A stretch of DNA of 53,877 nt, from positions 1 through 53,877 of the IMG/VR virus record IMGVR_UViG_3300046170_000029, one strand, 5' to 3'. This DNA comes from a virus. The position numbers and the translations under genes were made by a program. The notes beneath the pieces are model-generated. The model was not told the DNA's origin, ran no database searches, and saw nothing but the letters and a program-made list of their open reading frames with translations. Positions 9,812 through 49,011 of this stretch are shown here, in pieces (within the stretch, counting starts at the first letter, position 1; each line of letters starts with the position of its first letter).

Positions 9812-9987
9812 TGTTAGAATCTGCTGAGTTATTATGGTGGCAATGGTGGTTACTTATCGCCATTTCCATCAATACAACTATAAACTTAATCGTGTTCTTT
9901 AAAGGTAGGAAGCTACACATAAGGGAACTATTACATCTTAAACCTAAGAGAAAAGGAGTTACACATGGAAAACCTAGCACCAAGTAA
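9811..9987 (+). CDS. Small membrane protein
   Basis: 58 residues (MLESAELLWWQWWLLIAISI…). One strong transmembrane helix with a Trp-rich start (about residues 8-30, ending VFFKGRK) is followed by a basic cytoplasmic tail. The start overlaps the RNR stop (TAATG) and the end overlaps the following gene by 23 bases. Position and composition suggest an inner-membrane protein of the early operon; its role is unknown. Confidence 0.6.
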   Translation: MLESAELLWWQWWLLIAISINTTINLIVFFKGRKLHIRELLHLKPKRKGVTHGKPSTK

Positions 9988-10390
9988 AGAGAACAGAAAG
10001 AAGTTTGATATAGACCTAGAGTATGGACAGGTAAGAGAACAGCTAGTAGCTGATATGTTACAAGATAAAAAGATAGAAGTTAAAAGTGAAAGAGATATGT
10101 GGCAACGTACAGGTAACATTGCCATTGAGTACCAATCTTATGGTAAGCCAAGTGGAATAGATGCAACTGAATCTGACTATTGGTTTCATAATTTGTGTGT
10201 AGGAGAAGATACTTTCTGTACATTAGTATTTAATACAGAGAGTTTAAAGAAAATAATAAAGAACTTAGATTATAAAAGGTCTGTCTCAGGTGGCGATAAT
10301 AACGCATCTAGAATGTACCTACTTAATTTACAAAAATTATTTTCATCTGATGTTATTAAAGCATTCAAGGAAGGAGAAGCAACAACATGA
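9965..10390 (+). CDS. PD-(D/E)XK nuclease-like protein
   Basis: 141 residues after AAAAGGAG. It contains an acidic residue in the first helix (EYGQVREQ), a KIEVKSE strand (E-x-K), IAIEYQS, and GKPSGIDATESDYW. This order (E, ExK, then Gln/Glu and a G-x-x-S-G-I loop) fits small PD-(D/E)XK endonuclease-like proteins found in marine phages. It might cut host DNA or process phage DNA. The assignment rests on motif order only, so the enzymatic role is tentative. It overlaps the next gene by ATGA. Confidence 0.55.
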   Translation: MENLAPSKENRKKFDIDLEYGQVREQLVADMLQDKKIEVKSERDMWQRTGNIAIEYQSYGKPSGIDATESDYWFHNLCVGEDTFCTLVFNTESLKKIIKNLDYKRSVSGGDNNASRMYLLNLQKLFSSDVIKAFKEGEATT

Positions 10391-46201: not shown

Positions 46202-46230
46202 ATTATACTCGATTATGGTGTCCTTGTCAA
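46202..46230 (-). promoter_or_regulatory. Consensus sigma70 promoter for the late (virion) arm
   Basis: On the minus strand, TTGACA (46225-46230), a 17-base spacer and TATAAT (46202-46207): perfect -35, spacing and -10. It points toward the structural arm, about 185 bp upstream of its first gene. The 14-bp repeats lie in the transcribed leader. Confidence 0.8.
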
Positions 46231-46734: not shown

Positions 46735-46790
46735 TTAACAATGTTAATGAAATAACCAATTCGTAGCTCCTATTTAGTTAACAATGTTAA
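46735..46790. promoter_or_regulatory. Pair of 13-bp palindromes TTAACAATGTTAA
   Basis: Identical palindromes at 46735-46747 and 46778-46790, centres 43 bp apart, about four helical turns, so on the same DNA face. A degenerate third, TTAAC-N6-GTTAA, is at 46817-46832. The TTAACAAT core recurs in the palindrome over the scaffold promoter at 33102-33118. They lie upstream of the early promoter, as expected for a repressor or activator array. Confidence 0.65.
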
Positions 46791-46852: not shown

Positions 46853-46879
46853 TTGACAGATTTTTAATCTGCTTATAAT
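46853..46879 (+). promoter_or_regulatory. Sigma70-type early promoter with internal inverted repeat
   Basis: TTGACA (46853-46858), 15-base spacer, TATAAT (46874-46879); perfect hexamers with short spacing. A perfect inverted repeat CAGATT-TTT-AATCTG (46857-46871) fills the spacer, where a bound protein would block RNAP. It reads into the early gene at 46922. Confidence 0.65.
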
Positions 46880-46921
46880 AATCAAATCACGTTCACATTA
46901 ACAAACATACGGAGAAACGAA

Positions 46922-47296
46922 ATGACACACACAAACAACAACAACCTAGACTGCCCTCAATACTTTGAGTATTGGACTTGTGATGGTATTGCTGAGAATT
47001 TACCATGTGATAACAAGGGTATTGCAGATAAGACTTATGCACACATATGGAACATAATAATTCCTCAAATGGAATTAGACCAAAAGGCATCATTAAAAGA
47101 GATTGGTTATGATAGTTTAAATAACTATTATGAAAATGTAGGTGGTGATGATGGTACACTACGTGAAATGTGTGAAATGCAAAAGTATTGGCATTTATTA
47201 AAAGATGATATGAAAGCCTTTTTAATAGAATTTGCAAGAGCAAAGCAAGATGAAGAAGATGCTTGGCTAAAGGAATTTAACAACTCTAATCTTTAA
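46922..47296 (+). CDS. First early gene, hypothetical protein
   Basis: 124 residues after CGGAGAAACGAA. Asn-rich start (MTHTNNNNLDCPQYFEYWTCDG), two to three Cys near the N-terminus, then acidic helices (MCEMQKYWHLLKDDMKAFLIEFARAKQDEEDAWL). No family recognised. As the first gene after the early promoter it probably acts soon after infection, where host-takeover proteins are typical; that role is inferred only from position. A long hairpin follows its stop by 8 bases. Confidence 0.7.
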   Translation: MTHTNNNNLDCPQYFEYWTCDGIAENLPCDNKGIADKTYAHIWNIIIPQMELDQKASLKEIGYDSLNNYYENVGGDDGTLREMCEMQKYWHLLKDDMKAFLIEFARAKQDEEDAWLKEFNNSNL

Positions 47297-47304
47297 ACCC
47301 TTAT

Positions 47305-47364
47305 GTTATATAATACTTAAATACTTCCATTTATGGGTAAAAAGTATTTAAGTATATATATAAC
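47305..47364 (+). ncRNA. Intergenic hairpin A (shared 15-nt loop)
   Basis: Stem 14 bp (47313-47326 with 47342-47355) extended by 8 bp (47305-47312 with 47357-47364, one bulged A). The loop 47327-47341 is CCATTTATGGGTAAA. The same loop occurs in hairpin B at 48385-48399, while the stems differ and are each fully complementary. It sits between two early genes, with no U-run after it. Candidate structured RNA element or DNA cruciform. Confidence 0.75.
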
Positions 47365-47386
47365 TAACAACATAGGAATTGACACA

Positions 47387-47638
47387 ATGAGACTTCGATA
47401 CGAAAGAAAACAAATCATGCTTAAGAAAGCATCTAACTATTCAGCAATCAGCTTCATGGCTTACTTATGTGCTATAATAGTACCACTATTTGCAGGTACT
47501 GCTATTGACATTATCCTTGATAATGATGAAGTGCTAGTGAATGTATGTACATTGACATTCCTAGGTTTTGGAATGTTGGGTATTGTGACAATGGCATTGT
47601 CATTTATTTACACAGAAAAAGCTTACGAAAGGAATTAA
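47387..47638 (+). CDS. Small membrane protein (two helices)
   Basis: 83 residues from ATG 47387, preceded by AGGAA with 8-base spacing. An in-frame ATG at 47333 lies in the hairpin loop without a ribosome site and is rejected. Basic N-terminus (MRLRYERKQIMLKK), then two hydrophobic helices (AISFMAYLCAIIVPLFAGTA; VCTLTFLGFGMLGIVTMALS) joined by an acidic loop. A small inner-membrane protein expressed early; possibly superinfection exclusion or membrane remodelling, by analogy only. Confidence 0.65.
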   Translation: MRLRYERKQIMLKKASNYSAISFMAYLCAIIVPLFAGTAIDIILDNDEVLVNVCTLTFLGFGMLGIVTMALSFIYTEKAYERN

Positions 47639-47642
47639 TCAC

Positions 47643-48356
47643 ATGGCTTATAAAACTTTTACAGTTGGCAGTAATGCCAAAACTATCAAAGGCGATAATG
47701 ACATATACGAAACTGCAATCACTTATATGAAACCATATAAGACTGAGATTAATGGCAAGGTACACAACCTATGTGCTTTAGCCGATAAGGCTAAATGCTA
47801 TGAGGGTTGCCTATACTCAGCAGGTCGTGGACAGATGAATAGTGTGCAACAATCACGTAGCAATAAAACAGAATGGTTTATTGTTGATAGAATAGGCTAC
47901 ATTGATGCATTGATAAATGATTTGACTAAGTTTAGTCAAAAGTGTGAACGTAAAGGCATTAAACCTTGTGTAAGGTTAAATGGTACTTCAGATATCCAAT
48001 GGGAAAAAATGGGCATCATGGAGCAATTCCCAAACATTCAATTTTATGATTACACTAAAATTGTAAAACGTGCTTATGGTAAGTTACCTAGTAACTACCA
48101 CTTAACCCTATCATATAGCGAGGCTGATGCAGATTATGCAGATAGTGTGTACAAGGCAACATGTGAGACTAAAACCAATATGGCAGTTGTGTTTAGAAGT
48201 AAACACAGTATACCTAAAACCTTTAGGGGTTTACGTGTTGTTGACGGAGACAAAGACGATTTACGTTTCCTAGACCCCAAAGGGGTTGTGGTTGCATTGT
48301 ATGCGAAGGGTAAAGCCACTAAAGATACTAGTGGTTTTGTGATTGACGTTGCATAA
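47643..48356 (+). CDS. Gene product 88-like protein
   Basis: 237 residues after GAAAGGAATTAATC. It matches the plan of the phage 'gene product 88' family: CALADKAKCYEGCLYSAGRG (three Cys in the spacing C-x7-C-x3-C and a following S-x-G-R), an R-x-N-KTEWF segment, and VRLNGTSDIQWEK. It then has beta-alpha units (YHLTLSYSEADADYAD; MAVVFRSKHSIPKTFRG) ending in VVDGDKDDLRFLDPKGVVVALYAKG. The family has no assigned biochemical role; the cysteines suggest metal binding. A good candidate for an early host-acting protein. Confidence 0.65.
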   Translation: MAYKTFTVGSNAKTIKGDNDIYETAITYMKPYKTEINGKVHNLCALADKAKCYEGCLYSAGRGQMNSVQQSRSNKTEWFIVDRIGYIDALINDLTKFSQKCERKGIKPCVRLNGTSDIQWEKMGIMEQFPNIQFYDYTKIVKRAYGKLPSNYHLTLSYSEADADYADSVYKATCETKTNMAVVFRSKHSIPKTFRGLRVVDGDKDDLRFLDPKGVVVALYAKGKATKDTSGFVIDVA

Positions 48357-48361
48357 CTTAC

Positions 48362-48422
48362 GTATCATAACATTAATATTACTTCCATTTATGGGTAAAA
48401 AGTAATATTAATTTATATGATA
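48362..48422 (+). ncRNA. Intergenic hairpin B (same loop as A, different stem)
   Basis: Stem 13 bp (48372-48384 with 48400-48412), then a small internal loop and 8 bp more (48362-48369 with 48415-48422). The loop 48385-48399 is CCATTTATGGGTAAA, identical to hairpin A. It lies after the GP88-like gene and before the 61-aa gene. The stem keeps pairing despite different sequence, which is covariation between the two copies. Confidence 0.75.
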
Positions 48423-48450
48423 CTTACACTAACTAAAAGGAATTTACATC

Positions 48451-48636
48451 ATGGCTAAAATTTACAGATTACCACAAACATCACACAAACCCTTGAGAGC
48501 ATGTTGGGTTGAGTACGATTGCAATGCGAGAGAAGACGAAGTGATTACAATATATAGTGGCAAGGTTAAAACCTATGGTTTTGATATGACTAGAAAAGGT
48601 AAAAGAAAAAGATTTGTAAGAAAATCAAGTGCTTAG
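48451..48636 (+). CDS. Small basic hypothetical protein
   Basis: 61 residues after AAAAGGAATTTACATC: MAKIYRLPQTSHKPLRACWVEYDCNAREDEVITIYSGKV…, ending in a basic stretch (MTRKGKRKRFVRKSS). It has a small beta core with a basic tail. Its stop codon's last base begins hairpin C. It lies between two hairpins, so it may be one of a set of separately controlled early genes. Confidence 0.6.
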   Translation: MAKIYRLPQTSHKPLRACWVEYDCNAREDEVITIYSGKVKTYGFDMTRKGKRKRFVRKSSA

Positions 48637-48697
48637 TTATTTAAATTAAAAAACACTTGATACTTTAGTGAAAGTGTTTATTTAATTATAAAATAAC
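48636..48697 (+). ncRNA. Intergenic hairpin C (related architecture, different loop)
   Basis: Three pairing blocks from the loop outward: AAACACTT/AAGTGTTT (8 bp), AATTAAA/TTTAATT (7 bp), GTTATTT/AAATAAC (7 bp), with bulges on the 3' side only. The total is about 22 bp, like hairpins A and B. Loop 48659-48671 is GATACTTTAGTGA, unlike theirs, but the loop is again closed by ACTT/AAGT. It follows a short early gene. Confidence 0.65.
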
Positions 48698-48732
48698 TTA
48701 TAACAACAACAACAACGTGAAAGGTTAAACAA

Positions 48733-49011
48733 ATGTTAATTACAAGAAAATCAGTAATAAGTGGTAACGTCAACACAATGGACATAAACGTAACCCAAGA
48801 GCAGTTATCTGCTTGGGAAAGTGGTACTCTCATACAGAATGCCATGCCACACATATCAGCAGATGAACGTGAGTTCATTATGACGGGTATCACTCCTCAA
48901 GAGTGGGATAATGAAATGGGTTGTGACGAAGATGATGACGAAGATGATGGGCAACCCTCATGGGAGCAAGAGTGGGAAGATTTTGGCGAGGTATATTCTG
49001 ATGAGTACTAA
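48733..49011 (+). CDS. Acidic hypothetical phage protein
   Basis: 92 residues: a basic start (MLITRKSVISGNVNTM), DINVTQEQLSAWESGTLIQNAMPHISADEREFIMTGITPQEWD, then a very acidic tail (CDEDDDEDDGQ). The ERE-F-x-x-TGITPxEWD block is common in phage small proteins of unknown function. Acidic tails of this type can mimic DNA, so an inhibitor role is conceivable but not shown. The last 11 bases overlap the next gene. Confidence 0.65.
   Translation: MLITRKSVISGNVNTMDINVTQEQLSAWESGTLIQNAMPHISADEREFIMTGITPQEWDNEMGCDEDDDEDDGQPSWEQEWEDFGEVYSDEY

Follow-up and report, generated by a model that had tools for sequence, protein, structure and literature searches.

Hairpins with a near-invariant loop and free stems precede early genes in HMO-2011-type and other marine phages

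Three hairpins in the early region

IMG/VR virus record IMGVR_UViG_3300046170_000029, analysed over its full length of 53,877 nucleotides (nt) and called the window below, carries three related hairpins between its early genes. Terminase, portal, PolA-like polymerase, ribonucleotide reductase, integrase and GP88 genes mark the window as HMO-2011 type. Hairpin A (47305..47364, + strand; arms 47305-47326 and 47342-47364) and hairpin B (48362..48423, + strand; arms 48362-48384 and 48400-48423) present the same 15-nt loop, CCATTTATGGGTAAA, at 47327-47341 and 48385-48399. Hairpin D (48635..48698, + strand; arms 48635-48658 and 48672-48698) has the same architecture and a different loop, GATACTTTAGTGA, at 48659-48671. 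This second loop is also present in the phages HMO-2011 and CRP-1. We refer to CCATTTATGGGTAAA as the C-loop and to GATACTTTAGTGA as the G-loop.

The head of the early operon carries a sigma-70-like promoter (TTGACA-18-AATAAT; 46853..46882, + strand), recognised by consensus match only (11/12 positions), and no hairpin of the A/B/D family lies there. The first early gene (46922..47296, + strand; no assigned function) stops 9 nt before hairpin A. Downstream of A are a gene for a small, probably membrane protein (MRLRYERK...; 47387..47638, + strand) and the gene of a GP88-domain protein (PF17338, phrog_1617; 47643..48356, + strand), whose stop lies 6 nt before hairpin B. Hairpin B precedes the gene of a small basic protein (MAKIYR...; 48451..48636, + strand), and the stop codon of that gene is overlapped by the foot of hairpin D. 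The gene downstream of D (48733..49011, + strand) belongs to phrog_20898; this family and one other are the ones that such a hairpin precedes most often. Because the operon begins with a good sigma-70-like promoter ahead of its first gene, the hairpins are internal leaders.

An initial annotation of this DNA had described A and B as an identical loop on different stems that each pair. This holds, as the loop occurs twice exactly and its flanks pair in both places. The window contains no other match to the 15-mer within 2 mismatches, where chance would supply 0.17. The stem of A has 22 pairs with one bulge, and that of B has 13+8 pairs flanking a small internal loop. The block common to both is 25 nt long (TACTT-loop-AAGTA); beyond it the arms differ and still pair. 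Compared with shuffled sequences, RNA folding gave z values of -3.8 for A and -6.0 for B, and DNA folding gave -6.9 and -6.7. A U-run was looked for at A and B and none is present, so neither is a simple terminator, a role that the annotation had held to be unlikely. The annotation was right about A and B; what it did not see were hairpin D, the other loop family and the association with the downstream gene described below.

Covariation of the stems

Covariation was computed on unique, ungapped inner stems. In the C-loop set (8 sequences) 100% of the cells are paired and two-sided change is seen in 12/12 pairs. The covariation score is 1.03, compared with 0.25 after shuffling and at most 0.24 when the partners are slid. 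The G-loop set (30 sequences) shows two-sided change in 8/9 pairs, with a score of 0.61 versus 0.15 shuffled and at most 0.21 slid. One-sided G-U changes are found in neither set. The sequences are related and these counts are not independent events; two-sided change is still spread over nearly every pair. Pairing is kept, the stem sequence is free and the loop is near-invariant. The fully paired cells and the two-sided changes bear out the earlier suggestion that structure is under selection.

Many copies with compensating stems are present in related phages. The stem and loop of hairpin A recur in loci L075, L091, L099 and L102. Orthologues of hairpin B, with compensatory stem changes, are found in L075, L091, L099 and L103; window B and its L075 orthologue differ at two pairs, both by double changes. 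A recent duplication as the source of the common loop is excluded, since in these relatives the counterparts of A and those of B each retain a stem of their own.

Distribution of the hairpin family

Among 2.9 million viral contigs (IMG/VR), the C-loop 15-mer was found in 114 stretches. The sites split in two: 19 have at least 12 paired flanking base pairs (bp) and the others have at most 5. This clean split shows that the association with a hairpin is not due to chance. The 19 hairpin sites represent 12 loci, all on HMO-2011-type contigs, and the poorly paired sites are mostly chance matches in coding sequence. L075 and L091 have three C-loop hairpins apiece, on three different stems.

The G-loop came to light through the HMO-2011 copy, which sits on a different stem. 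Scanning for it gave at least 120 stretches, most with long paired flanks. Together with its variants the G-loop accounts for more than 100 further loci, a lower bound, in HMO-2011-type podoviruses (HMO-2011, CRP-1, CRP-345) and in other groups. Exact copies lie at positions 17 and 1217 of HMO-2011 and at position 1003 of CRP-1, and the variant GAATATTTGTGA lies at position 831 of CRP-345. The G-loop was not found in CRP-2, CRP-3, CRP-207, CRP-235, CRP-603, CRP-738 or HTVC033P over most of each genome (the first 12 kilobases (kb) only for CRP-603). In records searched whole, exact G-loops number 1-2 per record and occur in the early part only.

Across the family the loops measure 13-15 nt and the stems 20-25 bp, and a genome has 1-4 copies, confined to the early region. 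These numbers come from IMG/VR contigs that are often fragments and among which relatives are over-represented. The G-loop variants (for example GAACTTTAGTGA, GAAACATAGTGA, GATATTTATTGA and GAATTTGTGA) share a plan of a 5' GA, a 3' GA and usually an AC..GU mini-stem around TTTA between them. An internal mini-palindrome around TTTA is present in both the C-loop and the G-loop with its variants, and most loops start and finish with GA. The invariance of the loop is partly an effect of the search; variants were also sought free of that bias in the loci already collected. Used as an independent probe, GAACTTTAGTGA recovered 28 unique elements that are again paired, some on stems bearing G and C (CCCCTT/AAGGGG, GTCTT/AAGAC, CACCT/AGGTG).

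The same G-loop hairpins are found in L130, L146, L194, L200, L208 and L230. These phages measure 36-41 kb, carry CobS/CobT-like genes and have almost no proteins in common with the HMO-2011 types. L339 appears to be a third unrelated phage group that bears the hairpin. Beyond HMO-2011-type podoviruses the family reaches at least one unrelated phage group and probably a second. In bacteria there was a single match among 84,980 species genomes, without a stem. No named family with this loop emerged either, as the annotation had stated: the covariance models of Rfam 15 gave 0 matches in the window at gathering score, and GATACTTTAGTGA appears in no paper.

Several candidates were set aside. L137, L163, L166, L220 and L268 were excluded as chance pairing inside coding sequence. 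Loops closed by C-G are not found on a real stem in the element set, apart from one probable chance match in coding sequence. The similarity of Anabaena phage A-1(L) is due to chance, as it consists of an AT repeat and the loop is missing. Other structures were seen along the way. In L122 (CRP-4, MK613346, a cobavirus) an intergenic threefold repeat at about 1698-1748 (TTAAAGTATC, GATACTTTAA, AGATACTTAAAGG) is reminiscent of the G-loop. A separate class of hairpin, TATCTCAC-TTCTT-GTGAGATA with varying tips, is found outside the studied leaders in L305, L299, L213, L141, L147 and others.

Position and linkage to the downstream gene

With few exceptions the elements are in the sense orientation and occupy the gap that separates two early genes running in the same direction. 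The loop falls a median of 25 nt past the stop and 68 nt ahead of the next start. Gaps with a hairpin measure about 106 nt, whereas the median of the remaining early gaps is 1 nt. Linkage was tested on pairs of loci whose other neighbour differs, with heuristic gene calls and a background of 11%. At 30-50, 50-75 and 75-97% identity, a homologue of the downstream gene has the hairpin in front of it in 47%, 60% and 59% of pairs. A homologue of the upstream gene has the hairpin behind it in 10%, 39% and 69% of pairs in the same classes. At distant identity the hairpin tracks the downstream and not the upstream gene, which identifies it as a leader. Common downstream families are phrog_20898, as after hairpin D, a small basic protein with INPVAKAL and a MYKDAYGFRP protein. 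After the GP88 gene there is a C-loop in the window and a G-loop in HMO-2011, which suggests that the two loops can replace each other. The annotation had also pointed to an ATG in the loop, read as MGKK in both hairpins. A start there is not upheld: the frame to the next gene varies and the G-loop family has no ATG.

In some relatives TTGACA or TTGACT is enriched at a -35-like spacing ahead of the hairpin; TTGAC lies 33-49 nt before the loop in about a dozen of the 67 elements. A sigma-70 promoter within the hairpin was rejected, because this enrichment is not seen for the window copies. A second small palindrome, GTCCRAYRTYGGAC, is frequently found in HMO-type relatives (for example L117 1250-1270, L141, L145) between the AT hairpin and the Shine-Dalgarno sequence, and it shows pair-preserving changes; it was looked for in the window and is absent. 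In the window, the change from late to early operons is marked by divergent, near-perfect sigma-70-like promoters at 46202-46230 (- strand; 12 of 12 matches) and 46853-46882 (+ strand; 11 of 12). An imperfect 20-bp hairpin (ttaacaatgttaatgaaata/tatttagttaacaatgttaa, loop ACCAATTCGTAGCTCC) lies upstream of the early promoter at 46735-46790. Elsewhere in the window, 9965-10390 encodes a phrog_13596 protein that is also present in HMO-2011 and in an unrelated group-2 phage, not in CRP-1 or CRP-345. We take it to have a possible PD-(D/E)XK-like motif.

Wobble pairs in the stems

Selection on the sense RNA should tolerate G-U and not A-C. Since A-to-G and T-to-C are complementary changes, base composition has little effect on the ratio of G-T to A-C. 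The 105 unique elements contain 2279 Watson-Crick pairs, 5 G-T, 13 A-C and 75 other mismatches. The control, 56 terminator-like hairpins from the same loci, contains 622 Watson-Crick pairs, 41 G-T and 12 A-C. The ratios differ with a Fisher p of 0.0003 for cells and 0.0009 for events merged by hand. The GAACTTTAGTGA elements, some of which overlap with the 105, have 598 Watson-Crick pairs, 5 G-T and 6 A-C; there is no G-T excess, and taken alone their difference from the control is not significant (p=0.06). The near absence of wobble pairs suggests that pairing is selected in DNA, or at least in a form that refuses wobble. Going by these counts, pairing looks to be selected in DNA rather than in the sense RNA. 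Most of the stems are AT-rich, in genomes that have 37-50% G+C, and such stems would fit extrusion.

What may read the loop

The reading we favour, tentatively and without counting it as probable, is a leader hairpin, likely of extruded DNA, in which reading of the loop would govern the early gene that follows, in the manner of the early promoters of phage N4. The AT-rich stem would extrude from supercoiled incoming DNA, or form on a single strand. It would only need to pair, and would present the apical loop as a recognition site. A putative protein would read the presented loop and start or control transcription of the downstream early gene. Pairing of the hairpin would matter in DNA, because wobble pairs are not tolerated.

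At N4 early promoters, which are served by the virion RNA polymerase, supercoiling extrudes a required hairpin whose non-conserved stem positions can change provided that they still pair, and the reader contacts a DNA loop with a sheared G:A (PMC4496689). The present hairpins are likewise DNA inverted repeats in several copies per genome upstream of early genes, with stems that are replaceable if paired, here by comparison and not by biochemistry, and most of their loops have GA at both ends. They differ in having 13-15 nt loops on AT-rich stems of 20-25 bp, versus a 3-nt loop on 5-7 bp with conserved bases in loop and stem, and no giant, virion-packaged, T7-like RNA polymerase was recognised in these phages. 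Because the size differs so strongly and no polymerase was found, we do not classify the hairpins as N4-type promoters; by analogy they may work like one.

Several observations weigh against a loop-read DNA hairpin. The N4 hairpins are far smaller. A search for an RNA polymerase or another candidate reader found none: no RNA polymerase profile or motif in the large proteins was convincing, though a very divergent one could escape, and an unrelated group-2 phage has no polymerase among its large genes. L5 gp82-like, Hydrolase_2, Pyr_excise and a virion protein were considered as readers and rejected; they are present in hairpin-bearing and not in hairpin-lacking HMO-type phages and merely mark the subgroup. 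No conserved start site is proven, though YTAAC recurs 22-26 nt past the loop. The wobble counts are small, the elements are related and events were merged by hand, and RNA might avoid wobble for some hidden reason. Finally, in L006 (5330), L013 (3173, reverse strand) and L339 (6862, reverse strand) the 3' arm contains a Shine-Dalgarno-like AGGAG. An RNA form could mask it; in L006 and L013 the start codon follows directly.

The AGGAG copies count in favour of an RNA leader, which is the main rival and a real possibility, itself short of probable. Here a phage or host RNA-binding protein would bind the loop, or the hairpin would protect, process or repress the downstream early mRNA. The sense-strand, stop-to-start placement and the linkage to the downstream gene agree with it, and GA...GA loops with an AC/GU mini-stem resemble an RNA-binding motif. 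On the other side, G-U is no commoner than A-C in the stems, unlike in the control RNA hairpins, the stems are mostly A-T and weak, and Rfam has no match. The lack of wobble pairs also weakens the RNA processing option of the initial annotation. Its specific form, an intercistronic RNase III site in the style of the T7 early region (R0.3-R1.3), is very unlikely. The hairpins do lie between early genes, and their roughly 20-25 bp are interrupted by bulges and internal loops. However, the T7 sites keep the stem (AAGGTC..GGCCTT), vary the loop and have G-U pairs, which is the reverse of what is seen here. Bacterial RNase III is not known to read the loop, which also counts against such a site. 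Intrinsic terminators share the position after a stop codon; they differ from the present hairpins, which have no U-run, an AT-rich stem, a fixed loop and no wobble.

Improbable, if less so than an RNase III site, is a DNA hairpin that serves single-strand recombination or cassette exchange, or replication and nicking. Integron attC sites are DNA hairpins with a variable stem beside a stop codon, and in these respects the present elements are alike. They also pair at the DNA level, the same phages encode a tyrosine integrase and early gene order varies. However, attC conserves stem boxes and extrahelical bases and has a variable tip, and cassette shuffling is not seen here. Neighbour conservation at hairpin and other early junctions, at rising identity, was 0.08/0.08, 0.19/0.21, 0.25/0.50, 0.52/0.48 and 0.72/0.75; one bin is lower and there is no general effect, which weakens the recombination option of the annotation. 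The hairpin also tracks the downstream and not the upstream gene, and over the genome portions scanned, integrase-bearing relatives such as CRP-2, CRP-3 and CRP-207 lack it. The motif CTTG^ATA resembles HUH nick sites (phiX174/pC194). Against a nick site, the motif is absent from the C-loop and several G-loop variants, and no HUH protein was found among the subset of window proteins scanned. The least likely explanation is mutational: template-switch repair of quasi-palindromes would keep the arms complementary with no selection on pairing. The perfect Watson-Crick arms, the two-sided A-T/T-A changes and the near lack of intermediates seen here speak for it. One-sided indels and bulges are nevertheless common and persistent, and such repair leaves unexplained the near-invariant loop, the restriction to the leaders of certain genes and the presence in unrelated groups.

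The initial annotation is partly supported: it stands on structural selection, the absence of a terminator and the lack of a named family, and not on the ATG, and its RNA processing and recombination options are weakened. To return to the loop-read DNA hairpin, its fullest form is a switch or promoter for the early genes of double-stranded DNA phages without a recognisable RNA polymerase, with two interchangeable loops, in unrelated marine groups. That this is so, and that such a mode has not been described before, we regard as rather doubtful. Frpo/ssi single-stranded DNA promoters in the leading regions of conjugative plasmids are also hairpin-type leaders ahead of the first genes expressed after entry. 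The present hairpins differ in belonging to double-stranded DNA tailed phages and in having a fixed loop on a free stem, where in the plasmids the promoter forms part of the stem.

Conclusions

Phages of the HMO-2011 type rank with the most abundant viruses of the ocean (PMC9038755). We found nothing on the control of their early genes; promoters, terminators and hairpins are unmentioned in PMC9038755. The wobble test is a cheap way to separate DNA-level from RNA-level hairpins in comparative data, and the cultured carriers CRP-1, CRP-345 and HMO-2011 make direct testing possible. A near-invariant loop on a free stem, common to unrelated phages, points to an undescribed reader. The conserved-loop hairpins look like an undescribed control element that is read through its tip.
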